Shown: piece by piece, positions 9,591 to 42,900 of the stretch | Layout: each line of letters opens with the position of its first letter | Numbering within the stretch: position 1 is the first letter of the stretch | Source of the DNA: Pegea sp. RAD2-039 | Taxonomy: Eukaryota; Chordata; Thaliacea; Salpida; Salpidae | Reading direction: 5' to 3' | Length of the DNA stretch: 64,000 bases | Assembly: GCA_034620365.1 (NCBI GenBank) | Contig: JAQGEQ010000007.1 | Location: forward strand, 186,001-250,000 | Translations under genes and position numbers: made by a program | The notes under the pieces: generated by a model | Told to the model about the DNA's origin: nothing | The model's database searches: none | What the model saw: the letters and a program-made list of their open reading frames with translations, nothing else

Positions 9591-10634
9591 CAGTGCATCC
9601 TCGCTAATCCGGCCATGCTGGGCAAGCTTTTTTCATAATTATGGCCGGATTAGTCTATGGCCGGATAAGAACAAAAATCGTTTTTTAAACAGTCTACCTT
9701 TTTTATATTATGCAATGCATATAATAATAGATCTCTCAGAATCGATTTTCTATAAATTCTTTTGATCGATTGGTTGTATCAGTGCAGTAACATTTAGAGG
9801 CAGAAACTTGGTAGTGATCTTGCCATCAGCTGATATAAGTTCGTCCTCACTTGGATGGGAAGAGTAATTGTCGAGGAACAAAATGCCCCTTTCTTCTTGT
9901 CCAAGTTCTCTCAGCTTTTGTTTCGTTTCGGGAACGAAACAGTTAAAAAAAACAATCTGTAAAATATCACGGTTGACCAAAGTATTTGCTTGATTTTGGC
10001 AGATAACCGGCAGCGCCTCCTTGTTGAGATTACAAAAATGCGTATTTTTAGCCTTACCAATTAACAATAAAGACAACTTTCTTGTTCCACTGGCATTTGC
10101 ACGGGTATTTATTGTCACCCTGTTTTTTGCCTTTTTATTCCATCCGACCGATTGTGTACTGATGCTAAGGTATGTCCAGGCAAAATGATGTTTGGAGTAA
10201 CCCTTGGTTATACTAGAAAATTTATTAACGAATTGCTCAGCAGATGAACTATCTGAACTTATTTTCTCACCGCATGTTTTGAGATTCCTCAAGCCGAATC
10301 TCCTTCAAAACCTCCATTGAAACCTCGAACTTGCTAAAAAAGCTTAGAGTGCTCACCGTAAATTAAACGGTGGAACTCAGTGGCCTTTTCTAAGAGTATT
10401 GGACCAGTTACTGGACAGCCCTTCTCACGGTCCTGATGAAACCAGATGTAAAGAAAACTCGAGCAAACAAACTTGTGACATAAAAGTAAAAATATATATT
10501 ATGTCAGCTTTCCAGTGATCTCCAGTCAGAAAAACATTGATTTTAGCTGAATTAATTAAATTTACTTCTTGACTGAAACCAGCCGGATTAGCAAGAACCG
10601 AATTAGCAAGGGCCGTTATAGCGAGGATGCACTG
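9591..10634 (-). mobile_element. Tigger/pogo-like DNA transposon, internally deleted
   Basis: The element is 1044 bp. Its ends are inverted repeats beginning CAGTGCATCCTCGCTA; 21 of the first 24 bases match. It is flanked by a TA dinucleotide on both sides (9589-9590 and 10635-10636), the target duplication of Tc1/mariner-pogo elements. The related sequence at 19035-19070 reads straight through the same point with a single TA, an empty site that fixes the boundaries. Subterminal motifs related to CCGGATTAG recur inside both ends. It carries only the C-terminal half of a transposase (separate entry), so it could move only with enzyme supplied elsewhere. Family: TIRs and protein resemble Tigger/jerky-type elements. 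Confidence 0.88.
9750..10292 (-). pseudogene. Truncated Tigger/jerky-type DDE transposase
   Basis: An open frame of up to 180 codons encodes the DDE domain of a pogo/Tigger transposase. Recognisable blocks are NRVTINTRANASGTRKLSL and LLIGKAKN, then LPVICQNQ, then GILFLDNYSSHP (second catalytic Asp) and FLPLNVTALIQPIDQ (third Asp). Family members usually have around 450-600 residues, with N-terminal CENP-B-type DNA-binding domains and a first catalytic Asp in a D-E-T/S motif. Those parts are missing, matching an internal deletion of the element. The frame ends just after QPIDQ, so the C-terminal tail is also short. It is not a functional enzyme alone. Confidence 0.85.
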
Positions 10635-12131: not shown

Positions 12132-15100
12132 TCAAGCCGATTTAATGGTTTCAAGTTCAATATTTTCATTTTTTTGGACTGATTCTTGCTTGATTCTACA
12201 ACATTTTATTTTAATGAAGTTTGTAATGGTTTTATCGATACCTGAATAAATGATTGGATTTATTGCACTATTGATTGGTAGGATAATGATAGCAGAATAA
12301 GGAAGTAGTTCACCATCAAATTTGTATCCACTATAGCTTATAATAGACATGATTATAACTGGTAACCAACAAGACATATCTGTTATAATGATAAGGAAAA
12401 CTCGTAATTTCATTTTTCCCATTTGATTTGTATTTTTTGATTGTTTAACAGATTTTGAGCTTTTCTTAGTGGTGTAGAAAATGTAGCTATAAGCTGCACA
12501 AATATATAAAAGTGAGCAAGTATTGAAAGTTATAATGATCAAAGAAAGAATAAAATGAGATGATGAAATACTTGTATAAAGATCTGGAAAGCAAACAGGG
12601 GAGGTACTGAAGTATCCGAACACATTTTTTATTTTAACGTTTCTGGACTGAAATAGAGATTCTCCTTTTCCACTTTCGAAATAAGTTTTAATGAATTGAT
12701 AGCTTAAGTTTGTACCACGGCTGTTGTTGAACATTGATGATGTATTAGGAAGGTTACTGAGAATTATTTTAGTTTTTTTGTAAAACTTTTCAATTGTGCT
12801 GTGATTTACCGATTGGTCAAGGAAAAAAGGATTTGATTCAATATAAAGTTGATCAGCAAAGTTATATTTGAACCACACTGGAATCATTGCAAACAGGAAA
12901 CAAAGCACCAAAGAAAAGAATGAAACAAGTCTGATGAGCTTGTGGTTTAATCGATTAGTTTTATATGGGCAAATAGTAAGATACAATCTCAAAGTTGTGA
13001 TTAGTACTAAAGTAGACATTGATGTTTGAGATGAAAACACAGCAAGCACACCAACAACGTTACAAGTAGTACTTGCTCTCCATTCAAGATCATGAATGCA
13101 ATATTGACCTGAATATTGAAATGACTTCACACCAAGTATCGACAACGAGACTCCCATTACTAAATCAGAAACTGCTAGCTGACACAAAAGAAATGTATTC
13201 ACATATTTCACAGAACTTTTACTTTCAGCTTCTTTTAATTTCAACCAATGCTTTCGAATGACATAAATGTTAACAATTATAGTAAGAACTGTGACAAACC
13301 AAATAAAGTAACGAAGAAAGTGGCTTTTAATCATCTCATATACAGATGAAAAGTAGTTTAAGCATTCATCTGAACCGTCAGAACAGTCTTTTCGACCATC
13401 TAAATACTTGCTTTTTTCAATAAACTTGGAATTGTTATTCCAACAGTAGAAATGAGTTTCTTTTGAACAATTCATTTCATCTGAACTATCTAGACAATCA
13501 ACATTGTAATCACAAACTTTAATCAAGTCGATGCTTTCAATCTCTTCTGACTTACAATAAAACCTCCATGAACATAAATACCTTTGGATGTTACAAAAAT
13601 CTAACATTGATTTGATTGTGATATTTTTGTAACCATCAATTTTCATCGTAATAAGTGACTTATTATTGTAAAGTTTTTGGTTTTCTATCAAAATTTTGTT
13701 TGAGTTAAGTAGTAATTCATTTTCTAGAAATAAACTTGGTGGTAAGTTTTTGTAATCTATCACTAAATGCAGAGATCTTGTAGAAGTTAAATTGCTTGTT
13801 AGTCGTAAAAATGGAAAGCATTCAGTTAAACTAAATTTATCAAAATTTTGATTAAAAGTTTTTGCAAATCCATTTTCTGACCATTTTAAGCTGCTGTTGA
13901 TACATACTTCTGAACATTCATCGTCTTTTAAGTGACAGTCAACCTTATGATCACATGATCTAACTGAAATGACTCTATTAGTTTCGTTTTTCCTCAAATT
14001 GTGTGATGAGCAAGTATGAAGTGTTTCATTTTTTTGGTTTGAGTCAAATAACAAAGACAAAACTTGTTTGTTGCAAACTTTCTCGTCTGTTCCATTTTCT
14101 AAATCATCAATATTATTACAAAGTATTTCAAAATGATGTTTTTTGAGATTTTCTGAATTACTTGATGTCACTATTGGATAAAACTTCTGACAAAGCGATT
14201 CAATTGAAGATTTCTCGCATGTACATTCATCTGATGCGTCGGGACAGTCGATTATGTTGTCACAAACTTGTGAGTTGAATATTATAGTTTTATTATCTAA
14301 ACATTTTGAACAAATATACTGGTTTTGTTCATTCAAACATTTTTCCTGTATATTTGAACACATGTTGCTATCAGGAGTTGTATGATTTTGGAATTTATTT
14401 GGTAATCCAATAAAGCTATTAGTTTTTAGTTGACAATTATTACCGAAAATAAGATTAGAATAATATTTTAACCCTTCAACGTATAAGTTTTTCAAACCAC
14501 TTAAAATTGACTTTGAAGTAACGAAAACAATTTCACCTCTAAAACTTCTCACATAATTATTCAAATCGCACATTTCAATTTCATCACTTCCGTCTTTACA
14601 GTTCAAGATTCCATCACAAATTAGTATTTGTGGAAGACATCTGCTTTTATCTAAACATTCAACTTCATTTTGTATACATTGATCGAAAGTATGACTTTCA
14701 TCTTCTCCTGATTCACAATCTCTAATTGAGTTACCCAACCAGGATCTAGGTATACAACGGGTTTTGTTCCGTTTATCTAAATTACATTTAAATTCATGGA
14801 AAAAACAATTTTTCTGAGTATTACTTTCATCTGAGCTATCTTTACAATCACTGAAACCGTCATTGACACGATATCGAGGAATACATCGATGACTACCCTT
14901 ACAAGTAAACTCAGTCTGATTAAAACATTTTAAACTATCAACTTCATCAGCACCATTCGAACAATCATGTATTCCATCCTTCACCCATTCTCGTGGAATA
15001 CATCTGTTGTCTTTATCAGGACATTGATATTTTGTAGCATTATAACATGAACCAAAAGGCTCGTATATTCGCTTTCCAAATTTATCATACTGAAACATAA

Positions 15101-16821
15101 TATAAGAGATAAGTGATATTTCAAGTTATTTGAAACGCATTCCTGATGAATTCTATCATATTTTCAGAAAATGTTACTGTTTTGATAACTACTTTTATTA
15201 TTTAGTTTTATTCTATTTATTCTTGAACTAACCTTGTTTTTCTATTAGATTAAAATTTATTTTGGTTTGCATTTATTTCAAAAAAGTTAAGATTGTGAAA
15301 TTCTTAACCAAAAAATATTATAGTGAATAAAATCTTACTAAAATAGTTGTACCAATTATAGATTAATTAAAACAATTTATGTAATTATCATGTTATTATA
15401 TATTTAGTTTTTCTTATTAGTTTAGTTTCAGAAGCAATTATGTTGTTTAATTTTTGTTGCTTAGCCGAGTAAATGAAAAATTTTTAAGTTAAAACTGCTT
15501 TTAATTAAATTACAAACCTTTTTTATCTGACAAGCATCAGATATATCAGACATATAACTGATTGAAAATACATTTTCATAATATAAAATACTATAATTTG
15601 AAAAACTTATCCATTTTTGTGGAAAGCATTGGTTAGTTTTCTGACACAGAAATTCATCAGGATGACATCGAAGTTGTAAAAAAGTGGAAGTTACTTTATC
15701 ACAACCCCAAATGATGTCTCCTCGTTTCTCACATCTGCTTAAATAATTCATTAAGAATATTTTTATTCAATTGTTGTAATTATTTGCTTCACTGAAGTAA
15801 AATTTCATATTTTCTAAAAATCTTAAATAATCAAATAAATATCAGTTTGTCTGGTTTCAATTTTAATTCAGTTTCTTAGGAAAGTTTCTAAAACTTTTAA
15901 TTTTGTATCAGAAGTTAAATTTGGTTAAAAAATCATTTGAAGCAAACTTATAAACTTTTAAAGAAAATTAATCGATGAATAGTTTCAACAAAATTAACCA
16001 AAAATCATTAAATTTTAAACTGAAAAATTTGTAAATTTTATTTTGTTTTTGATATTCTTTTATACTTGGCTTTTGCGGAAATAGAGACAACTGAACTTTA
16101 TTTAAAAAAAATTCATTTTATCTTTTTACAATTTTCACAGAAATTTTAAAAGGTTTATTAAAATCATTAAAACAAAAAAATTAAATTATAAATAATTAAA
16201 ACTTAAAAAGTATTGAAAACTAAATAATTATAAAAATTGCAATTATTAATAAATACATTAATAATTACATTACTTTTAAAAATATTTTAAGTTCGTTTAA
16301 AGTAAAATAAATTGGAATTACAGATGAACAAAGTTTACTTCTCACATTTCTCGACACCGAACTTCATCATCGGTACATTTTAAAGTAACTCCACAAAACT
16401 TATAAGCGAGTTTTCTATGAACACAAAGTTCATCACCAATTTTGACATCGAAACCCTTTTCTAAAAAACTTAATACAGATCGGCATTTTTGAAATCCGTC
16501 TTCAGACCTACAAGGTTTACTGCTGTCATGTTTCCTTGCTGCATTATCTGTTTAAGTTGAAGCATTTTGAAATTATTTTTAGAAACGAAACCTTCAATAA
16601 TTTATATTTAAATTAAAAACTGGTTTTTATAATTTATATTCCTTAAAGTATTAATTTTGAGAATAAATGAACGACATCTAAAAGTTATTTTCAATTCTAA
16701 TGTTTTTAGAAAGTAAATTAATTGTTTTGTAATGATTTGTTAGTTACTTACATTTCCAACTCAAAGTGAAAGTGAAAGAAAACAAAACCACAAAACAAAT
16801 CCATTGAAAAAGTTGCAGCAT
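12132..16821 (-). CDS. LDLa-repeat 7TM receptor (class A GPCR, RXFP/GRL101-like ectodomain)
   Basis: The large last exon (15089-12132, 985 aa) and the preceding exon (15734-15518, 72 codons) join in phase. Up to nine LDL-receptor class A modules precede the membrane region. The clearest carry DGILNCKDGSDE, NDGFSDCKDSSDE, CDNIIDCPDASDEC, CDYNVDCLDSSDEMNC and DGRKDCSDGSDEC; others are degenerate. The 7TM part starts about residue 590 of the last exon: QLAVSDLVMG (TM2), TLRLYLTICP (DRY region), DMSCWLP (TM6) and INPIIYS (NPxxY, TM7). The combination resembles relaxin-family receptors and snail GRL101, but I see no leucine-rich repeats. The ligand is unknown. Exons at 16821-16752 and 16547-16358 can be joined in matching phase (donor at 16357) and would supply the signal peptide, giving about 1144 aa. 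That 5' join is inference; the 15734-12132 part is firm. Confidence 0.85.
16342..16821 (-). CDS. Signal peptide plus Cys-rich module: receptor 5' exons or a separate 91-aa secreted peptide
   Basis: Exon 16821-16752 starts with ATG and encodes a signal peptide (LFQWICFVVLFSFTFTLSW). It joins in phase 1 to exon 16547-16342, which ends at TGA. The result is a 91-aa secreted protein with six cysteines (KPCRSEDGFQKCRS, GDELCVH, YKFCGV, LKCTDDEVRCREM); I do not recognise the fold. Alternatively, a donor inside the second exon (GTGTCG at 16357) has the phase-2 ending needed by the receptor exon at 15734. That would make these the first two exons of the receptor, which otherwise has no signal peptide. 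Both could occur by alternative splicing, giving a receptor and a secreted short form. Confidence 0.6.
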
Positions 16822-20551: not shown

Positions 20552-22372
20552 GTAAACTTCCTATACAAACAAATTAAAACAGACCCTTCCATCAAATCTC
20601 TGTACAAAGATCTTTGTATAGTTTACAAAAAATCTGTTTCTAATTTCTATTTGGGAGCGAAAGTGCAGTTTTATCTTCACCTTGCAAGAAAACTTTCTTT
20701 GGTTTCATAAATTGCAAGCTTAAGGCGAGATCTCTAATTGATAACAGCGACCAGCTTGTGATGGAACCAGAAAATAAATCTGAGTTGCTAAACAATCAAT
20801 TTAATAGCGTTTTCATAACCGATGATGGCAATACTCCTTCTCTCTCCTACTCAGACATTCTTACAAATGTCTCTGAGATGGTGGATCTTGACATAACGGT
20901 CAATATGGTATCTATTTCTGTTTAAAATCATCAGTTTCTAACACCCCAGATCAGAACCCAGCATTTTATTTAAGAAAAACTAATTCCTTTTTATCACTAC
21001 CTTTATCGCTTTTCTTTAACATAACTCTGAGGCGAGGAAGAGTTCCACAAATTTGGAAGAAAGCTATTATTAGAACATTTCAAAAAAAGGATCCTAGAAA
21101 CACTGCACTTAACTACAGACCAGTTTCGCTGACTTCAGCTATCTGCAGAACTCAAGAGCATATCATTCACAATCATATGACCAGTCATTTGATGGAGCAC
21201 CATCTAACATCTGATGTCCAACATGGCTTTGTGAAACGGAGATCTTCCCTGACTCAATATCACACTTTTCTTAATGAACTTACAGCTCATTAAGAAAAGT
21301 AACACTCGCTGTGACATCATATATCTCGATTTTGCTAAGACGTTTGATTCTGTCACACACTGGGCTCGTTACTGTATTGAAAAACTTAAAAATCAACAGC
21401 TTTATCTTACAGTGGATTGAAGATTACCTATCTGGTAGAAAGTCTGAACTTATAACTTTTTCTCGTAAACCAGTTGTAAATTGCTTGAGCCGATACTCCA
21501 TTAATAGATTTATTATTTAACGAGTATCTTCGGTCCTAGGCCTTGGCATTACTCCATCATCTGACTTTAAATAGCACAATTATGTTTCCGAAATCTTTGG
21601 AAAATCAGTCAACTTTCTCTTCAATATTATAAAAACCATTAATTCTAATAATCAATGTTTTTTTATCAGTCTTTTCAAATTGTACTTACGTCCAATTCTT
21701 GAATACAATGTCAGTGCATGAATGCCATATCAAGTAAGTGATATCAAAAAAATCGAATCTGTTCAGGCCACATTTAGGAGATTAGTGTGTAGGTAACTTA
21801 ATATTAAATACGATAGTTATAAACATCGTCTCAGTCTCTTCAATTTAGATACTTTTGAAATCCGGCGGATTAAATACGACTTAATTCTTATTTTTAAAAT
21901 TATCCACAATTTAATTGACATTCAGTTTCATGATTTCTTTTCTATTAGTCCTTCCTTCAAGTTATATCAGCTCAGACGACACACATTACACGTTAATAAG
22001 CCTATATCACCTAGTACATTGGTCAGGGCAAATTGTTTCTCATACCGCACAATTAATACATGGAATTAGCTGCCATCAGACATTGCCATGTCGAAGTCAC
22101 TCGCATTGTTCAAGCAGAAGTTGAACCGTTATAATATTGCCAACATTGTCATTTATAACTGTGATTTTTTTCTCTTTCTTATATTATTAACATTCCATGT
22201 AATTGTTAACTGTTATATGCTTTGAGTGATATCGAAATACCATGTGTTACATCTTTTACTTTCTATATTTTTGGCTAAATAGATGTTATTTGTGAGAATG
22301 TGTGTTAGCGAGAGGTGCTCTTTTCAGATACCCCCCTTCGCATTTATTGAAATGAATAAATAAATAATTGTT
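20552..22372 (+). mobile_element. Non-LTR retrotransposon (CR1/Jockey-like LINE), truncated copy A
   Basis: Matches the copy at 26.6-29.2 kb from KTDPSIKSLYKDLCIVYKKS onward. RT blocks seen in broken frames include LRRGRVPQIWKKAI, then YRPVSLTSAICRTQE, then SILLRRLILSHTGL-type sequence. The core RT section with the YADD box is missing: about 270 bases present in copy B (from 28617 to 28888) are absent at 21436. The copy retains about 550 bases of 3' ORF/UTR that copy B lacks. It ends in a short (AATA)n tail at 22358-22372, typical of these elements. It sits inside the duplicated receptor flank, so it inserted after that duplication. Inactive. Confidence 0.85.
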
Positions 22373-26584: not shown

Positions 26585-29243
26585 ATGTTGTTTAGTTGCC
26601 AGTTGTATCAGCTTATATCAAGCTACAGTACAGTTCTTGGAGTCAATAACAAAGAAATTAATTTCAAACCACTGAAAATGATTAATCGAGTTTTAGATCA
26701 AAATGGTCGACGCGATATTAATGAGAGTATTTTTGTACCAGCATCAGATCGCTCTGTCTTCTCTCGATTTATCTTACAAATTGCTTTGTGGTCAGCACTA
26801 AAGTTGTTAAATTACTCAAATATCTTTTCAACTAGAAATGTTATTGAGGTTGACATCATCATTTTTAATTTCATTAAAAACTTAATAATGTTGAAAAATA
26901 TCTCAATTTTATCTTTCTTAAACAATATGTTTTTGACTAAATATCAACCATGAAGAATTTTATTCAAAAATATCTATCGAAAAACCTAAACTTACGTGTC
27001 TACTTAAGAAAACTGATTCAGATCGATGACATTAATTTTCCAGGTTTCGAGAGTATCGCTTTCGATTTTTATCACTTAAAGTCCAAATTTTCTCGTTTTA
27101 TATGAACCTGACGGGGATACTGTTAAAGCCTTATTTAAGATTTTGAAGAGTGTTGTGTGTCCTGAGTTATATATTTTTGGGGATTCAGATTTTAGTAATA
27201 TTGATTGAAATAACCCGAATTTAGCATTTATTGGAAATTCGTTTAACTTGGATAGCGATAATACTAATTCACCCTTTCTAAGTCATGCCTTTGTAAGCTT
27301 CCTCAATGCCAATAATCTATCTCAAATGGTTACTTTTCCGACCCAAGTTATTGGTAATGCTTTGGATCTTCTTATCACATTAAAACCTGAGAACATTATC
27401 TACGTTGACCAAAAAGAATCCTTTTGCTTTGACATGCAATCACAACATGATTGAATTCAAGCTCCACCAAACTTTTTCAATAAATGTTAAAACTTCAAGC
27501 AAAAGGAATTTCTATTGTGGAAATTATAATGGTATTAACAAGTTTCTATCAAAAGACTGAATTTATGTTTTCAACTCTTCCGAAGACATCAATACTATTT
27601 ACTCAAGGTTTACTAACATCGTTAAAAAGTCAATCGAAAAATTCATACCTTTTTATAGAATAAACAAAAAACCACATTTGCCCATATATTTGAGGAATTT
27701 ACAACATTTAAAAAACCTCCTATACAAACAAACTAAAACAGACCCTTACATCAAATCTCTGTACAAAGATCTTTGTATAGTTTACAAGAAATCTATTTCT
27801 AATTTCTATTTGGGAGAGAAAGTGCAGTTTTACCTTCACTTTACAAGAAAACATTTTTTGGTTTCATAAATCGCAAGCTTAAAGTGAGATCCCAAGTACC
27901 TCCTCTAATTAATAACAGCGACTAGCTTGTGATGGAACCAGAAAATAAAGCTGAGTCGCTAAACAATCAATTTAATAGTGTTTTTATAACCGATGATGGC
28001 AATACTCCTTCTCTCTCCTACTCAGACATTCTTACAAATGTCTCTGAGATGGTAGCTCTTGACATAACGGTCAATATGGTATCTATGGCTATTTCTCTTT
28101 AAAATCATCTGTTTCCAACACCCCAGATCAGATCCCAGCTTTGTATTTAAGAAAAACTACTTCATCTTGCCACTACCTTTATCGCTTTTCTTTAACATGA
28201 CTCTGAGGCGGGGAAGAGTTCCACAAATTTGGAAGAAAGCTATTATTACTCCAATTCATAAGAAGGGTCCCAGAAATACTGCACTTAACTACAGACCAGT
28301 TTCGCTGACTTCAGTTATCTGCAGAGCTCAAGAGCATATCATTCACAATCATATGACCAGTCATTTGATGGAGCACCATCTAATATTTGATGTCCAACAT
28401 GACTTTGTAAAATGGTGATCTTCCCTGACTCAACATCTCAATTTTCTTAGCGAGCTTACAGCCCATTATGAAAATAACACTCCCTGTGACATCATATACC
28501 TCGAGTTTGCTAAAGCGTTTGATTCTGTCCCGCACAATAAGCTCGTTACTGTATTGAAAAACTTAAAAATCAACGGCTTTATCTTACAGTGGATTGAAGA
28601 TTACCTATCAGGTATAACCCAAGAAACTCGTGTAGAAAGATCTTTATCTACTTCTAGTCAAATCACTAGTGGTGTTCCTCAGGGTTCTGTTCTGGGTCCC
28701 CTTCTCTTTGTAATTATCATCAAAGACCTCATCAGAAGATTAGTAGCAGTAGATGTTGTCAGAGTGTTTGTGTATGCAGATTGTATCAAGCTATTATCTT
28801 GTAATCTTTCAAAACTTCAAGCTGCACTACACACTGTAGAAAACTGTTCTACGAATTGGCAACTCAAAATCCAGCCCACAAAGTCTGAAGTTATAACTTT
28901 TTCTCATAAACGAGCTGTAAATTGCTTGAACCGATACTCCATCAATAGATTTATTATTCAACGAGTATCTTCGGTCCTAGATCTTGGCATTAATCTATCA
29001 TCCGACTTTAAATGGCGCAGTTATGTTTCCAAAATCTTTGGAAAATCAATCAATTTTTCTTCCTTATTATAAAGACCTTTATTTCTAAGGACCCTTGCTT
29101 TCTTATCAACTTTTTGCTTTTTCATCAGGACTACTGAAATACTATGTGTCACATCTCTTGCTTTCTATATTTTATATAATTTTATAGATATTTTGTTTGA
29201 GAATGTATTTGAGTGAGAGGTGCTCTCTTCATAAATACATAAA
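26585..29243 (+). mobile_element. Non-LTR retrotransposon (CR1/Jockey-like LINE), longer copy B
   Basis: Endonuclease remnants appear near 27170-27450: YIFGDSDFSNIDW (GDFN-x-IDW type), LSQMVTFPTQVIGNALDLLI and a degraded SDH region. RT follows: KAIITPIHKKGPRNTALNYR and PVSLTSVICRAQEHI at 28167-28418, then GVPQGSVLGPLLFVI and VYADCIKLL at 28554-29072. The catalytic YADD box reads YADC, so RT would be inactive. Several stops and shifts break the ORF, and about 550 bases of the 3' part present in copy A are missing near 29127. The end carries the family signature GAGAGGTGCTCTCTTCA and a short AATA-type tail. The 5' boundary is uncertain; the open frame at 26585-26953 may be the element's start or unrelated. 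Confidence 0.85.
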
Positions 29244-32700: not shown

Positions 32701-33743
32701 AAAAGTCGGATGTATCCTCTGCATCTTAGGATCAACTGTGATTGTCATCCATGCTCCTCATAAAGAAGAAGTAGCTAATTTAGCTGAGATGGGAGTCAAA
32801 CTCCGGGACCCCGGTAAACTTTCTCTTCTACTTCCTTCAAATCTTCATCTTCTCATCTTCAGTCTTCATCGTTTACGGAGTCCTAGTTCTTCTCGCTTCT
32901 CTTTATCTCATCTTTCGGGTGGCTCCTCATTACGGGACCTCTAACGTCATGATCTACATCAGTATCTGTTCCTTACTTGGCTCCTTCTCTGTGTCTTGTG
33001 TTAAAGGAGTAGGTCTCGCAGTGAAAGAGTGGTTAGACGGGAATATGATTTGGAATAATATCCTTACCTACATCCTCTTCTTTGGATTAGTAGCTTCCGT
33101 TTCAACGCAGGTCAGAAACGATTTTCTTCATCAAATTTTCATCTTTTTATTTTCAGATTAATTATTTGAACAAAGCTTTGGATATATTTAACACTTCGAT
33201 GGTCACTCCTGTTTACTATGTCCTCTTCACCACTACCGTGCTCACCTGCTCTGCAATCCTCTTCAAAGAGTGGAGTGAAATGACTGTGGAATCTGTGATA
33301 GGGATGATTGCAGGTTTAACTTTTGGTTAAAGTGGTGCTTAAACTTGCTTCCTGTTAAAGATTAATTTTGAAATTTGTAAAAAAGCTGGAAATTTCTAAA
33401 TCTTCAAAATATTTATTTTATCGAATTAAGCTGCTTACCACAAGATTTAAAAGACACAAATTGAAAAAGATTTTATTCAGGATTTGGGACAATTGTAACT
33501 GGGATCTTCCTTCTTCATGCTTTTAAAGACATCAATTTCACACTTTCTGATCTTCCCAAATTTGCCAAAACCTCAGGATCTGAAGGATTGATTGAAAGAT
33601 CAAATCCTTCAACAAATGATAACAGCACAATCAATTATTCCTCATTGCTAGAAAATGGAAGAGTTAATGGGACCTACTCAGATGATGAAGATACTGAAGA
33701 GGTAGCCTTTAGCAAGCAAACAAACGGTGTCCTCTCAGGGTGA
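29752..33743 (+). CDS. NIPA/NIPAL-family magnesium transporter
   Basis: Exons 29752-29807, 30773-30829, 31711-31804, 31911-32047, 32231-32287, 32507-32597, 32653-32813, 32863-33110, 33157-33313 and 33481-33743 join in phase, giving at least 439 aa; the start exon was not found. The core closely follows the NIPA family: [127 protein letters not shown] and ILFKEW. Nine hydrophobic segments are expected for this DMT-superfamily fold (EamA-like). The N-terminal 80 residues before TM1 are polar with N-glycosylation sites (KNLT, ANETNFT, NNETS), as in the NIPAL subgroup rather than short NIPA1/2. Family members transport Mg2+ at the plasma membrane or endosomes. The first two introns are about 0.9 kb; the rest are 49-220 nt. 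Confidence 0.93.
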
Positions 33744-35123: not shown

Positions 35124-38100
35124 ATGATTATAAGGTAAGTTTTCTTTTATTGCAAATAATAAACTGTTGAAAAATTTGAATAAAAATTGTCCAACCTCAA
35201 ATGTTAATTGCTCAAAATATTTAACACTGACATGAGAATTTAAAATTCTCAAATTTGCATCTTAAATTTTGACATTAGAAAATATGTTATCTAAAAACAA
35301 AAAGTTGTTAGGAGATAAATTTTCGAAATTGAAGAAACTGAGATGAATTTTTTTTAGGTTTTTCATCATTGGAGTAATTTTCTTGGTCACATTATCGAAA
35401 GGTTGAAAAAAATCAACTGAAAAAGTTTTTTAAATATTTTTTTCCTTGTTTTTAGGCCAATCACCAAATCAAAATCGACAGAATTGTAAAGAGCAAAAAT
35501 ATTGTAACAAAGCTTATTGTCAGATTGAATTTTACAAAAAATTCTGTCCAAAGACCTGTGGAGCTTGTACAAGTTCCTGGGTAGATCCAAGTAAGCATCA
35601 TCAAAATTGTTTTTTAAACGAAAGACCTCATCATCACTAAATTATTTCAGTTTTAAGAAAAAATTTCTTAAATTTTTTTTAAGTTACTTATCATAGATTT
35701 AAAAAAGAATTAATAATCAAAGTTAATTTTGTTTAATATCTGATAATGTTTTAATTCAAATAAATAAATAAACAACGTTATCTCAAAAATTTGAAATTTC
35801 TAATATAAAGTATCTTAAAGATAAATAAATCAAAAGTTTTCCAGCTTTTTATAAAAATTGGCAATATTCAACTTTAGATTAATTTTATTTTGATTTTAGA
35901 AAACCATCTATATATAAATTAGAACATTTATTTCGTCAAATTTATTGTTTTAAATTTTTCTGCTTCTGGGAGAAAATCTACGAACGTCTTAAAACAACAA
36001 TTCTCTCAAGTAGACTACTTTTAAAAACTCTTTTAAAAACCAACAAAATAATTTTTGTGGTTGATTAAATGAATGTAATTTCTTCAGCACTTTGTGATGA
36101 CTTGAACTGTGAACATGGTTGTGAGGTTCTATCAGATGATGAAATTGTTTGTACCTGTCGTTCATCATATAAACTACATCAAAATGGTTACTCATGTGAA
36201 GGTAAATTACATTTGAAAGAAGAATCTCTTCTCAAAAGATCTGTGTAGATATTGATGAATGTTTATCATCTCCTTGTGAAAACGGACTTGTTTGTAGCAA
36301 TACAATTGGATCTTATATTTGTTCCAATAATCGACAGTGCTTGACTGGAAAAACAAACTATTATAAAAGAGAAAACTGCTGTGAAATAAGCGAAAGTCGG
36401 TGAGGAAGTCGAAATGGGAGTTTTTACAGCAAATTTGCTCAGATACTTGCGGGCAGAATAGAAAGACCGGTCTCCCAGGGTCTTTACCAACTCCTGATAT
36501 TGATCCTGCCAGAGGAGATTGGCCCTGGATTGTAAGTTGGTATCTGCTCAATAAATTGATGATAAAAGAAGTTACTTGTAGGCGACAGTTGTGATTAATG
36601 AGAGGAGGTATTTGGGAGTTTTAATCTCTAAAGATTGGGTCTTGCTCCCAGCTCACAGTTTCAGGTAGAAAATTATAAAAAGTTATTTTTATCAGAAAAT
36701 TATTTAAATAAAGAGATGGAGATGAAGACATAATAGTGGAAGTTGGAGATAATGGAAGTGAACAGAGATCAGCTGGTGGATTTCAATCTATAGATGTAGA
36801 TGAAGTAAGTGTTTTGAGGAGAAAAAATATGTTTTGAAGATTTTCATCAAATTCTTTATCAGGTTTTTATCCATCCGGAGTACGATTTTCCAAACAACGA
36901 TATAGCACTGATCCGGTTGTACTCAAGAGCGACAACTAGCGGATGGGTTTATCCGATTTGTTTACCAAATGGTGAAGCTCCTTCAGATAAAACAACTTGT
37001 TGGTTGAATGGACTTGAAATGAAAAGTTAGTTGCTGATTAGATTGATATTTTAGATTAATATATTTGTTACTAGTAACCGAAAAAGATCTGAAGTTTTCG
37101 ATTGCTTACAAGAATGTTACAATTACTTCACCTGATCCTTGTAAAAAGATCTTACAAAAATTTGGAGTTGATGAAGATCAACTCCACGGCACAATTTGTG
37201 GCTCTTTTGGTTTCAAGGACTCAATTGAGTGCCCAGGTCAGTTGAAAGATATTTAAAAAGTTTTGAAACATAAAAAATTTTGTCGAATTTTCAACATTTT
37301 CACAAAAATATTTTTTTCTTCAAAATCTTTCCAGGAGAAATTGGAGGAGCTTTGGTGTGTCAGAGATGTAGCTCTTGTGATTGGTACATCTTCGGACTTG
37401 CCTTTTTCGGAGATATTTGCACAAATCCTGAAAATTTGAGTCATATTTTATTCACATCAATCAATCGCTTCGAAAGCTGGATTGAAAAGACGACGGAGAC
37501 TCCCATCAACATCAACAGCAGATGCTCAGATGATTCAGGTTGAAGATTCAACCGAATCGAGATCAAAATACAAAAATCTTATTTTGCAGATGAAGTTGAA
37601 GGATCATTTGAAGCTTGGGGAGCTTGGAGTTCTTGTAGTTCATCTTGTGATGGAGGAAGTCAAACAAGACATCGATCTTGCGATGGAGAGAGGTGTGTTG
37701 GTCGAAGGAAGCAAGCGAGAAGATGTAACACGAAGAAGTGCTCCAGTGAGGATTCAAAGTCTTCTTGATCCGTTTCTTACATCTGAATTTCAGATTGGAG
37801 TGAGTGGGGACCTTGGGGAGTTTGTTCAGTCACTTGTGGAGACGGGATCATAAAAAGAGTGAGAAGTTGTCCTGGAGGTTCTGAAAGATGTCCTGGAAGA
37901 CTTTCTGAAGTGAAGAAATGTCAACAAAGATGTTCGAGTTAGTTTCAGTTGCCTAGCAACCTTGGAGGTTTCGATGTTGTTGCTAACAGAGTGGTCTGAA
38001 TTTGCTCCCTGGACATCGTGTACGAAGACATGTGGAGGAGGAAGAAAAGAGAAGAGAAGAAGATGCCTGGATGGTGAGATTGGGGATCCAGGATGCCCGG

Positions 38101-39176
38101 CTGGACGTGAAGTTGTTTCCATGGTAACAAGAGACTTTGATGAATTAATTTGCATAAAAATTGATTTAAAAACAGATTTGTGGTATCGAGGATTGTGAAT
38201 CTTGGAGCTCTTGGTCGAGTTGGAGTTTGTGTGGTGAAAGATGCGACTCCAAAAAACAGAAGACTCGAGATTGTTTGAGAGGAAGAATCGGAGATCCTGG
38301 ATGCAGAGGGAGCTGGAAGTTAGATGAGTTTTGTTATCCAGGTAAGATCTGAAGATGAATTTCCAAACAATCTTTCATCTTTTCAAATTAGATGTTTGTG
38401 AGTCTTTGTACCCCTGGAGTGAATGGGGATCTTGCTCTGTGTCTTGTGGATCAGGACAACAGAAATCAGTTCAAAGATGTTCTTCGATGTCTTCTTGTAT
38501 AGTTGCTACGAAGATTCGGAGTTGTAGCATCAACTCTTGTTCTTGTAATCTTATATTTGTTCACTTAATCTTCAACTTTAGCTTTCATCATCTTTTCTAG
38601 CTTCTGATTGGCTAACATGGAGCACGTGGTCAGATTGTGATGAAATTTGTGGAAAAGGTTTTCGGAAACGAAACAGGTTTGATCTGGAATTTGATTTTCG
38701 TTTAATTTGACAAATTTGTGTCTTGCAGAAGATGTAGATCCGGAAGATTTTGTGTTGGAAATGATTTAGAGGAAGAATCGTGTCAAGGAGCTGTTTGTGA
38801 TGATGATTCTTGTTTTCATTTAAATAATTTGAATCCGATAAATTTTTGCATTAATCAAATATCAAAATGTTCTTCTAGTACTACAATAAGATCTTTGTGT
38901 TCAAGAACATGTTGCCAATACGATAAAAGTAAAATATATTTCTATTTTTTAGATAAAAACAAAATAATAATGATTTGTAAAAAATGAAATTAAAGTTTTA
39001 GTTTAAATATTCAATTTTTAATAATTAAAATAATTTGTTTTAATTTAACAGCTTTAGAAGAAGGTGTTTGTATGGACCATCCTGGTTGGGCGAGTTTGTG
39101 TACAAGCTTTCCTTTTTTATGTTCAAAATTTGATATTGTGAAAACAGTTTGTAAAAAAACTTGCAAAATTTGTTAA
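35124..39176 (+). CDS. Secreted modular protein: ShKT, EGF, cbEGF, inactive trypsin-like, six TSP1, two ShKT
   Basis: Nineteen exons from ATG 35124 to TAA 39174-39176; lengths sum to 2397 nt (798 aa). Order: signal peptide (FFIIGVIFLVTLSKG); ShKT about 25-55 (YCQIEFYKKFCPKTCGAC); EGF about 66-100; Ca-binding EGF from DIDECLSSPCENG; trypsin-like domain about 165-405; six TSP1 modules about 415-715 (WSEWGPWGVCSVTCGDG, WSEWGSCSVSCGSG); two C-terminal ShKT modules ending KTVCKKTCKIC. In the S1 domain His is kept (LLPAHSF, about 205) and Asp is kept (NNDIALI, about 251), but the Ser motif GDSGGP reads GEIGGA, so catalytic Ser is Ile (about 349). Both Cys flanking the His site are also lost. It should be an extracellular non-catalytic protease homolog. 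One join is uncertain: reading from the second EGF into the protease needs a 47-nt intron 36396-36442 with a weak donor, otherwise a frameshift near 36400. Confidence 0.85.
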
Positions 39177-39927: not shown

Positions 39928-42900
39928 TTAAACGAAGATAAAGTTCTCTCCGTGTTTTCCTTCACAAGTACAATTCTGCGAAACTCTTCCGCCTCCATTC
40001 CATTTTCCATAACAAGGTCTTCCTTCTAAAGATCTCCAATTACTATCAATGTCTTCATATGCTCCTAAAATGATGACGTCATAAGACATTCTTAAGATAG
40101 CGAGGTACTAACCAGTACAAAATCCTTTTTCATTCATTGCTACATCATGACATTCAAGACACACAAGAGAGCCAACATCAAGTACATGAAAAGGAGAGGC
40201 ATATTTACAGCTCCAAGAAAGATCAGTGATTTTATAGTGGATGCAATAGCTAAAAGATTATTTCATGAAATTGATTAAAAGATTTATAAAAAAAATTTTC
40301 ATAAAATAATTAATTTAAAAATTATAAAATAGAAATATCAGAAATTAAGATGTTTTGTAAATTTGTATTTTGTGTTTTAGAATGAAAATATAAAATTATT
40401 GCATTTTTCTTTCAAATTAATTTAATATTGAACAAATTTCATTTTTAGAAATTAATTGAAAAAAGTTCATTTTTTAGCTACTTAATTTTGTAGAACAAAA
40501 ATTGAAGAAAATTATTTAATTTTAAAACTGAAAGAAGAAAGATTTTGATTTATTTATTATTGCTTACAGAAAAATTGATAATAATCATTATTATCTGATA
40601 ATTATCATCTGATTTTATAAATATTATTTTCTTTATTATTACAAATCAAGGCCAATTTTCTAAATATTTTAAATCTAGTTTTTTTATCTTGAATCTAGTT
40701 AATGGTTTATTTGGAAAACAACAAAAATTAGATAAATATTTTAAATGATAATTATCAAATAATAATTTAATTAAAAACAACTTTCTGAACGTTTTAATAA
40801 AAATAAAATTTTTTTTTGATAAAATATAAGTTTCTAGAAAAAATATTTTGATATTTAAATTCTACCTTGGTCTGATAAAACGATCTACAACAACTTGCCG
40901 TTGGTAATAGTCTTCAATATTTCTTTTACTGTTGTAATAAGCTGGTAAAATCTGTGCAGTTTCTATAAATAAAATTCAAAGGTATAAAAATTATAATTCT
41001 TAATAAAATTATCAATTTAAAATTTAATTATAATATTCAAATTTTTGTAATTAAAAATTAATGTTTTTGATTATTACGTCATAATTAATGAATATACTTT
41101 GAAACAATTTTAAATTAAACTTTTAAAAAGTTAATTTAAAAAAATGGAAAGAAAAAAACCCAGAAAGAAAAATACTGAAAGAAAAAATATAAAAAAAGAT
41201 ATAAAGATAAAGAAGATTGAAAGCAGAGATGCTGAAGATTTTGCAAATGGATGTCCATCAGTGATGATTATGTTAGAAAATGAGAAGAAATATATTTTTA
41301 AAGATGTTTTTCATCGTAAAGATTTAATTGAATTCCAAAAGAGAAAATTTCAAATTGAAGAAGAAAGAAAATTAATTCGTGAAAAATTCCAAAGAAATTT
41401 TGATCAGTTTTTAGAAGCTGAAACAAAGAAAAAAAAGAAAGAAAAGAAAAATCAGATTTCTTGAAACAAATTTGAATATTTGTAAAAAATCATCAAATTT
41501 TTCAAATAATTGAAATAAAGAAATTTTTGAGTTATTTCATTGGTTTTATCAATTAATATTTTTTAACTTGTCTAAAATAGTTACTTTTTTGAGGTTTGTA
41601 AACATTTTCTAATTTAATGATATTGACAAAATATAAAAACTATTAAATATCCAATTTTTCGGTAAGTTAATAATTAACTTAACAAATTTTTAAATAAAAA
41701 TTCTTTTTAACTTTTCTTATTTTGACATTGATTCAAGTCGTCACACATGACTGACTTCTGTAAGCAAAAACTCAAGCGCCAAAAATGAGTTATAAACATC
41801 CGGGAAAGTGTTTCCAAATATTTATAATATAGATCCTAAAGTTATTTAAACAATTCAGAGTTAAATTTGTAATTACCGAAGTTCCTACATCTTGGATCAT
41901 TGTGATAACATCCTCTGGTTTGCCTTCGAGGTCCACAAGGAGTTCCTCCGTTTTCCGAATAAGACTCGATCCGTCTACGTCTTTCAGAACTCCCGCTACC
42001 ACACCTCGCGTTACAATCGCTCCAAGACTCCCAGTTTGACATCACACAATCTTTAGCTGTTAAAAAGTTGAAAATACTTTGTTTTTGTAGAAAATTTATC
42101 TTCGAATTTTTTGGAAGTAATTATTATAATGACTCAGACTCAAAAAACAAAGTTTCTATTGTTCGTTTCAGACAAAGATTTTCAAAACTGTTCAAAGCCT
42201 GCATTGATTAGTTGAAGCAAAAGAAAGTTTCGCGTTTAAATGGATTTATCAAATCTTCGACTTTTGTATTTTATTTTTATCTGTTTTATAGTCTTACAGG
42301 ATTAAAAAACAGAATTTTGAACTTCAAGTTTAAATAACAGATTCTAAAGGAACTGCTTTAAGAAATATTTAAACTTGAGATAGTATTTATCTCTTTTATC
42401 GCTTGTTACTCCTAGCTGACTATCGCCAGACAATAATTTGATTCGAAGTCAAGCGAGAAGAAAACATTTTTGTTTAGACTTTATCATTTAGATCAAAACT
42501 TGTAAATTTCAGATTTAAAAATTATATAAATTATTATATAGATTTAAACTGTTTAAAGAAAATTATGATTTTTAAGATAAATAATTTTTGAAATAAGACT
42601 TTTTTTTTAAGTTTTTAAAATAAACTTTTATAAAAGAATAAAAATGATTTTTCACTTACTGAGTTTTACTAATTTGAAGTTTAAACAATTGTAAAAATTT
42701 CACGACAGATTTAATTTTGTATTTATATAATCATTTTTTTTAATTTTAAGTTTAAACTAAAAACTTTTTAAATCATTAATTTGTAAAAAATTTAATTTTT
42801 GTATAAAATTTGAAAGTGTTGACAAACGAGATTTTTAATATTTTTTCCTGAACTCAAATTCACGAAATAATTTGGTTTTTATCAAAATATTCTAACTTTT

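Follow-up and report, generated by a model that had tools for sequence, protein, structure and literature searches.

A serine protease homolog with replaced catalytic residues in a ShKT- and TSP1-bearing protease family of the salp Pegea sp. RAD2-039

Gene structure and domain architecture

We examined a window of 64,000 nucleotides from the salp Pegea sp. RAD2-039 (contig JAQGEQ010000007.1, positions 186,001 to 250,000, forward strand), in which a gene at window positions 35124-39176 on the plus strand, called the focal gene here, encodes a modular homolog of S1 serine proteases whose catalytic residues are partly replaced. The model starts with the ATG at 35124, its stop codon TAA ends at 39176, and its 19 exons splice into a single frame of 798 amino acids (coding sequence of 2397 bases, without internal stop). 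All 18 introns are GT-AG, 14 of them being 47-58 bases long, and the GC content is 39, 50 and 29% at codon positions 1, 2 and 3 and 24% in the introns. The encoded layout is signal peptide-ShKT-EGF-cbEGF-S1-TSP1x6-ShKTx2. The original prediction had proposed exactly this order at exactly these coordinates, and both the Pfam matches and a cysteine-spacing pattern agree with it, the signal peptide being assigned by reading.

Exons 1 and 2 (35124-35134 and 35358-35401) hold the start codon and the signal-peptide-like segment MIIRFFIIGVIFLVTLSKG; as the first coding exon has only 11 bases, the start is the least certain part of the model. Exon 3 (35456..35590) encodes the N-terminal ShKT module (six cysteines at 35485-35568), exon 4 (36088..36201) the EGF module and exon 5 (36249..36395) the cbEGF module (DIDEC), followed by a CC pair ahead of the S1 domain. 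The donor of exon 5 (AAA/gtcggt) is weak, and three joins to exon 6 are possible, one in phase 2 and two in phase 1. The phase-2 join was set aside, as three paralogs in the same genome (C57, C258 and C293) have phase-1 introns there. Using the earlier of the phase-1 donors would drop one cysteine of the CC pair; since all three paralogs keep this pair, the phase-1 join that retains it was adopted. Downstream of the S1 exons (6-11, see below), exons 12-17 (37590..38676) encode TSP1 modules 1-5 and the beginning of module 6, exon 18 (38729..38928) the end of module 6 and a ShKT module of the ...TCC type (38811-38915), and exon 19 (39052..39176) the last ShKT module (39069-39173) and the stop codon.

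A Pfam scan of the focal protein gave 6 matches at E<=1. The Trypsin family (PF00089, E 2.1e-25) covers residues 173-396 and profile positions 8-220, which places the domain in S1A, the chymotrypsin fold; with 383 distinct solved sequences also matching it at E<=1e-6, S1 homology is certain. TSP_1 matches five stretches (E 2.1e-22). The fourth of the six TSP1 modules is degenerate and, taken alone, matches only TSP1_CFP_C at 4.4e-4, below the cut-off. Residues 405-798, which contain the TSP1 array, hold 8 WxxW and 4 Cxx[S/T]C[G/D] motifs. The EGF match (2.1e-4) lies barely above the cut-off and the EGF_CA match (6.3e-5) below it. For the ShKT modules, ShK matched the N-terminal one (E 0.014) and the last one (0.0013), both below gathering, and the middle module had no match of its own; its counterpart in C57 scored 0.0016, likewise below gathering. 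Our own six-cysteine spacing pattern for ShKT, run on all six frames of the window, matched just three times, at the three ShKT modules of the focal gene. None of the 6 Pfam matches at E<=1 is a clip domain or a Gla domain, the place of the latter being occupied by ShKT. Membership among ADAMTS or ADAMTS-like proteins is not indicated, with no metalloprotease match at E<=1 and PLAC at 0.51, below the cut-off.

The original prediction had also raised channel modulation through the ShKT modules, of which the protein has three. We take the channel-blocking Lys-Tyr dyad to lie between the third and fourth ShKT cysteines, and by reading, no Lys-Tyr was present there in any of the 3 modules. The literature, here and below as represented by the consulted parts of each source, describes a Lys/Tyr dyad in the ShKT toxin and its lack in some other ShKT proteins; separately, it finds ShKT modules in many large secreted proteins (PMC6409789). 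Considering as well that the catalytically intact sisters C57 and C258 carry ShKT modules equally, we found the proposal unsupported and regard a channel-modulating role as extremely improbable.

State of the S1 domain

For comparison with the S1 domain of the focal gene, we used those of its six paralogs and of two ordinary trypsins, all from the same genome. Chymotrypsin numbers were assigned by alignment, and the numbered positions are read by their roles in chymotrypsin. Doubtful modelled exons of C258 between His57 and Asp102 were left out of its row in the alignment and the tree, and the trypsin of L002 was included in the tree only and not in the alignment or the residue table. L002 (C1:1818705-1822418) is a one-frame S1 protease in which, by reading only, C-type lectin modules and a chitin-binding-like stretch precede the protease.

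In exon 6 (36443..36531), which starts the domain, GSLPTPDIDPARGDWPWI replaces the R/K-I-V-G-G...WPW stretch and the activation site is lost. Exon 7 (36582..36664) retains His57 (LLPAHSF) and lacks both Cys42 and Cys58, the two partners of one disulfide, while exons 8 and 9 (36714-36804 and 36863-37025) retain Asp102 (NNDIALI). Exon 10 (37075..37236) has Ile in place of Asp189 (KDSIECP). Exon 11 (37335..37538) reads GEIGGA at the nucleophile motif (Asp194 to Glu, Ser195 to Ile, Pro198 to Ala), followed by CQRCSSCDW, and replaces Ser214 with Phe and Gly226 with Ile. Gly193, Gly196, Gly197 and Gly216 are kept, as are Cys122, 136, 168, 182, 191, 201 and 220 and the cysteines of the CQRCxxCxW motif. 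The replaced positions (R/K15 with a hydrophobic residue at 16, C42, C58, D189, D194, S195, P198, S214 and G226) are all conserved in 5/5 paralogs with a full triad and none is conserved in the focal gene. The Ser195 change, the retained His and Asp and the loss of both His-loop cysteines had been part of the original prediction and are all present; the losses at the activation site and at positions 189, 194, 198, 214 and 226 add to them.

The focal gene thus lacks the complete His57-Asp102-Ser195 triad, R/K15-[IV]16 and Asp194, and is a serine protease homolog in the broad sense, having an S1 fold, a lost triad residue and a gene that is intact by sequence. With the activation site, pocket and nucleophile residues lost, zymogen activation, a trypsin-type pocket and the nucleophile are all missing, and the protein is, judged by its residues, catalytically dead. 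This agrees with the modular serine protease homolog first proposed. A single-base sequencing error behind Ile195 would be an insufficient explanation, as the changes also affect the activation site and, besides Ser195, seven more individual residues.

A family of paralogs, most with an intact triad

Paralogs were sought with a degenerate DNA pattern for CQRCxxCxW, run against the whole 105.7-Mb genome along with a backward control. The pattern matched 8 times in the genome, 7 of these in S1 exons (the focal gene included), and 0 times in the control. The remaining match, on C50, was taken as spurious, as a forced S1 model scored 69.5 there and 286-474 for the six paralogs: C57 and C258 (loci L033 and L034), C293, C84, C19 (L047) and C245. 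The S1 models of these paralogs come from our own splice-aware aligner, with the focal gene among the queries, and some stretches are doubtful. The full triad and Asp189 are found in C57, C258, C293, C84 and C19, so that 5/7 family members keep the triad. The exception beside the focal gene is C245, which is dead (Lys57, Asn102 and Ala195) and has no recognisable activation site.

C57 and C258 are closest to the focal gene in layout and intron pattern. Each has, on one strand, ShKT, EGF, cbEGF, S1, a TSP1 array, a CC-type ShKT and a final ShKT, the same order as in the focal gene, and each shares with it the CQRCxxCxW motif and the five S1 intron phases described below. They differ in having an intact triad, Asp189, a K/R-I-V-(S/G)-G activation site, and 10 and 9 TSP1 modules by pattern, respectively, compared to six. 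C293 has a similar layout; it carries a pair of ShKT modules at the N-terminus, and the pattern finds a single TSP1. TSP1-like units lie upstream of S1 on the same strand in C84 (8 pattern hits) and C19 (17 pattern hits), where the gene ends were not delimited. The C19 member (L047, C19:120000-129900) is active, and its 17 hits, mostly upstream of S1, include several nearly identical units (WGDWVEGTCSVTCG...), as after recent tandem amplification.

As the layout recurs in C57 and C258, a misjoined model combining two separate genes was ruled out. The architecture, described at first as an unfamiliar one, is by sequence not unique: the focal gene is one of seven members of a ShKT/TSP1-array serine protease family in this genome. 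In the literature, our search of the consulted sources found no match for the layout. One source refers broadly to ShKT modules combined with EGF, TSR/thrombospondin-type or trypsin-like domains (PMC6409789), but neither a layout of this type nor a dead S1 domain is described in the parts of that source consulted. ShKT and trypsin-like domains also appear together in one figure legend of a paper on the Oikopleura house, in which their arrangement is not stated (PMC3390340). Tenebrio SerP11 TSP resembles the focal gene in joining TSP1 to S1; it differs in that H, D and S are listed along with two TSP modules, and ShKT or EGF is not listed in the excerpt consulted (PMC11172050). The focal gene is a serine protease homolog, a known kind of protein, within a modular family that we did not find described in these sources.

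Probable retained function and probable repeated loss of catalysis

A non-functional paralog whose frame has stayed open by chance is one alternative to a functional protein, and the many missing catalytic residues and the long branch of the focal S1 domain fit it. To set against this, the 2397-base coding sequence is free of internal stops, 18/18 introns are GT-AG, and the partners of the lost disulfide disappeared as a pair. We also simulated neutral decay of the S1 part of the focal gene, with 400 runs per identity level. Stop-free outcomes numbered 37/400 at 90% identity, 3/400 at 80%, 1/400 at 70% and 0/400 at 50%, and the cysteines kept were 88, 76, 66 and 44% at these levels, respectively; the nearest active paralogs are 31% identical to the focal S1 domain. 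An open frame at this divergence, together with the simulation, makes selection likely, and the intron positions and phases held in common with the paralogs likewise argue against chance or decay. A decaying gene is therefore very unlikely, and selection, for something other than catalysis, most likely acts on the focal protein.

Intron phases divide the family in two. The focal gene, C57, C258 and C293 have five phases in common (CC../1/..CG, WPW/0/, AHCx/2/, GxGx/1/ and CQ/1/GDSGG). Of these, WPW/0/, AHCx/2/ and GxGx/1/ also occur in C84, C19 and C245, which have instead a phase-0 intron ahead of the Ser195 motif and another past the Asp102 motif. The CQ/1/ phase is thus the distinguishing mark of subfamily I, to which the focal gene belongs by its CQRCxxCxW motif, its ShKT-EGF-cbEGF-S1-TSP1n-ShKT order and its intron phases. 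Because these phases put the focal gene and C245 in different subfamilies, each with active members, the simplest account is two losses of catalysis, which we take as probable. In outline, the S1 tree shows the same division. Its dead members have branches of 4.76 and 4.84, compared to 0.69-1.72 in the five active relatives, as expected if catalytic constraint was lifted. That C245 lost catalysis as well, and separately, suggests a use for dead versions in this family.

We also took a census of Ser195 by reading the last S1 exon at each of 56 loci, namely the 7 family members, 46 genomic pieces and 3 single-exon trypsins. Ser was found in 51, was lost in 4 and was unclear in 1 (C83:121560). 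The four are the focal gene (Ile), C245 (Ala), C39:1073076 (Ile, GDIGGP) and C97:69748 (read as GAGGP), the last two being read as short pieces only. These 56 loci are a subset of the S1 matches in the genome, which number at least those listed (C206, C379, C380, C183, C20, C60, C40:6884, C39:1085887 and C39:1101079 are among the matches outside the census), and several loci are near-copies, so 4/56 is not a rate of independent loss. The piece with GDIGGP (L076, C39:1073055-1073265) has the same Ser to Ile change as the focal gene, and the similar pieces L075, L096 and L101 read GDSGSP or GNSGSP.

Proposed role of the focal protein

The best-studied serine pseudoproteases come from vertebrates and arthropods. 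As a class, serine pseudoproteases regulate, for example, clotting and insect melanization. Their published roles are those of ligand, cofactor, decoy or scaffold, illustrated by HGF/MSP, protein Z and haptoglobin (PMC13194640); in insects, clip-domain serine protease homologs take part in protease cascades either as cofactors or as members that are essential yet do not catalyse (PMC10540698, PMC6901238). On balance, we favour a comparable explanation here: the focal gene would encode an S1 pseudoprotease, secreted and rich in disulfides, that is tethered by its TSP1 and ShKT modules and binds without cleaving, and whose role alongside its active sisters would be that of a cofactor, decoy or scaffold. 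C57 and C258, its closest relatives in layout, keep the triad, Asp189 and the activation site. The focal gene lost activation site, pocket and nucleophile together, and its open frame, the other compared S1 cysteines and the CxxC motif stayed. The gene is thus probably not a broken one but one whose product was retooled for binding, in line with the binding or scaffold role that the original prediction had suggested.

In such a protein, the S1 fold would be retained as a binding surface. Together with the ShKT modules, the TSP1 array, whose motifs suggest possible C-mannosylation and partial O-fucosylation, would keep it on matrix, on mucus or on the surface of a target. There it would act in a non-cleaving way, most likely serving the active sisters, or their substrates or inhibitors, as a cofactor, decoy or scaffold; we prefer this role because active sisters of the same layout exist in the genome. 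Its working mode would resemble that of protein Z or the clip-domain homologs.

Protein Z, like the focal gene, has two EGF modules ahead of its S1 domain. This vertebrate plasma protein is a surface-bound cofactor with a dead S1 domain (PMC13194640). It differs in having a Gla domain, which the focal gene lacks, bearing TSP1 and ShKT modules instead. Like the focal gene, arthropod clip-domain homologs have the S1 fold, have lost Ser195 and keep His and Asp, and they are non-catalytic cascade members. The comparison to them made at the outset was apt in mechanism but not in architecture, as they have a clip domain; they are also activated by cleavage (PMC6901238), whereas the focal activation site is lost, and three Tenebrio examples have Gly where the focal gene has Ile (PMC11172050).

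The same literature bears on a different role, in which the dead S1 fold would be a message to a cell receptor and the TSP1 and ShKT modules would govern its spread. In HGF and MSP the dead S1 domain is a receptor epitope (PMC13194640), and the focal S1 domain has diverged fast, as a new binding surface might. However, HGF and MSP are activated by cleavage of zymogen-like precursors (PMC13194640), the focal activation site is lost, and no pointer to a receptor was seen in the window, making this role quite doubtful. Alternatively, the protein could be a structural component of matrix, mucus or adhesive, with the TSP1/ShKT array doing the work and S1 serving as a folded spacer. The 6 TSP1 and 3 ShKT modules do make up most of the protein, and among the proteins related to adhesion that are reported from a flatworm and from a limpet are a TSP1 protein and a ShKT protein (PMC6745481, PMC7333891). 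However, the S1 domain retains the family motif and all of the other cysteines compared, beyond the needs of a spacer. An array of this kind is also present in C57 and C258, the active sisters, and so does not explain the loss of catalysis; we consider a structural role unlikely.

Several points weigh against the cofactor, decoy or scaffold role that we favour. Beyond a protein that is secreted and dead, we infer everything from sequence, and the TSP1 glycosylation is read from motifs. The paralog models were built with the focal gene among the queries, and some of their stretches are doubtful. The split between the subfamilies has a support of 54/88, making the tree weak, and the dead members are long branches of unsure position. 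A pseudogene with a still-open frame would also contradict it, although this is unlikely given the divergence.

More tentatively, the family as a whole may form a lineage-own extracellular S1-ShKT-TSP1 protease network, with active members giving rise to pseudoproteases on at least two occasions and these now regulating their sisters non-catalytically, in parallel to the arthropod clip-domain homologs and vertebrate protein Z. Because a single modular family here includes both active and dead proteins, spread over two intron-marked subfamilies, it offers a natural comparison set for the path from protease to binding protein. For the focal gene, this path is one in which activation site, pocket and nucleophile went, while one family motif was kept along with the remaining cysteines that we compared.

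Other features of the window

A second TSP1 gene seems to adjoin the focal gene downstream (39928-42120, minus strand), where one exon encodes a TSP1 of the spondin type (PF19028, 1.4e-13) and the C-terminal part gives a weak SBSPON-like match (0.0061), below the cut-off. Upstream lies an exon of a NIPA-type magnesium transporter (32784-33161, plus strand, 1.6e-19). No Rfam family and no tRNA was found in the 64-kb window. Separately from the window scan, a search for COX1 gave no match, two rotifer primers (PMC11219915) had no site within 2 mismatches, and a search for Sushi domains, in which many CCP modules matched, decided nothing. Mobile-element remnants include two related reverse transcriptase fragments that by reading are like those of long interspersed nuclear elements (20892-21293 and 28068-29072, plus strand; RVT_1 2.5e-22 for the frame 28419-29072) and a DDE_1 transposase fragment (9750-10304, minus strand, 4.5e-15). 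Finally, a single open frame of 997 amino acids (12132-15125, minus strand) has five LDL-receptor class A stretches followed by a match to rhodopsin-type seven-transmembrane receptors.

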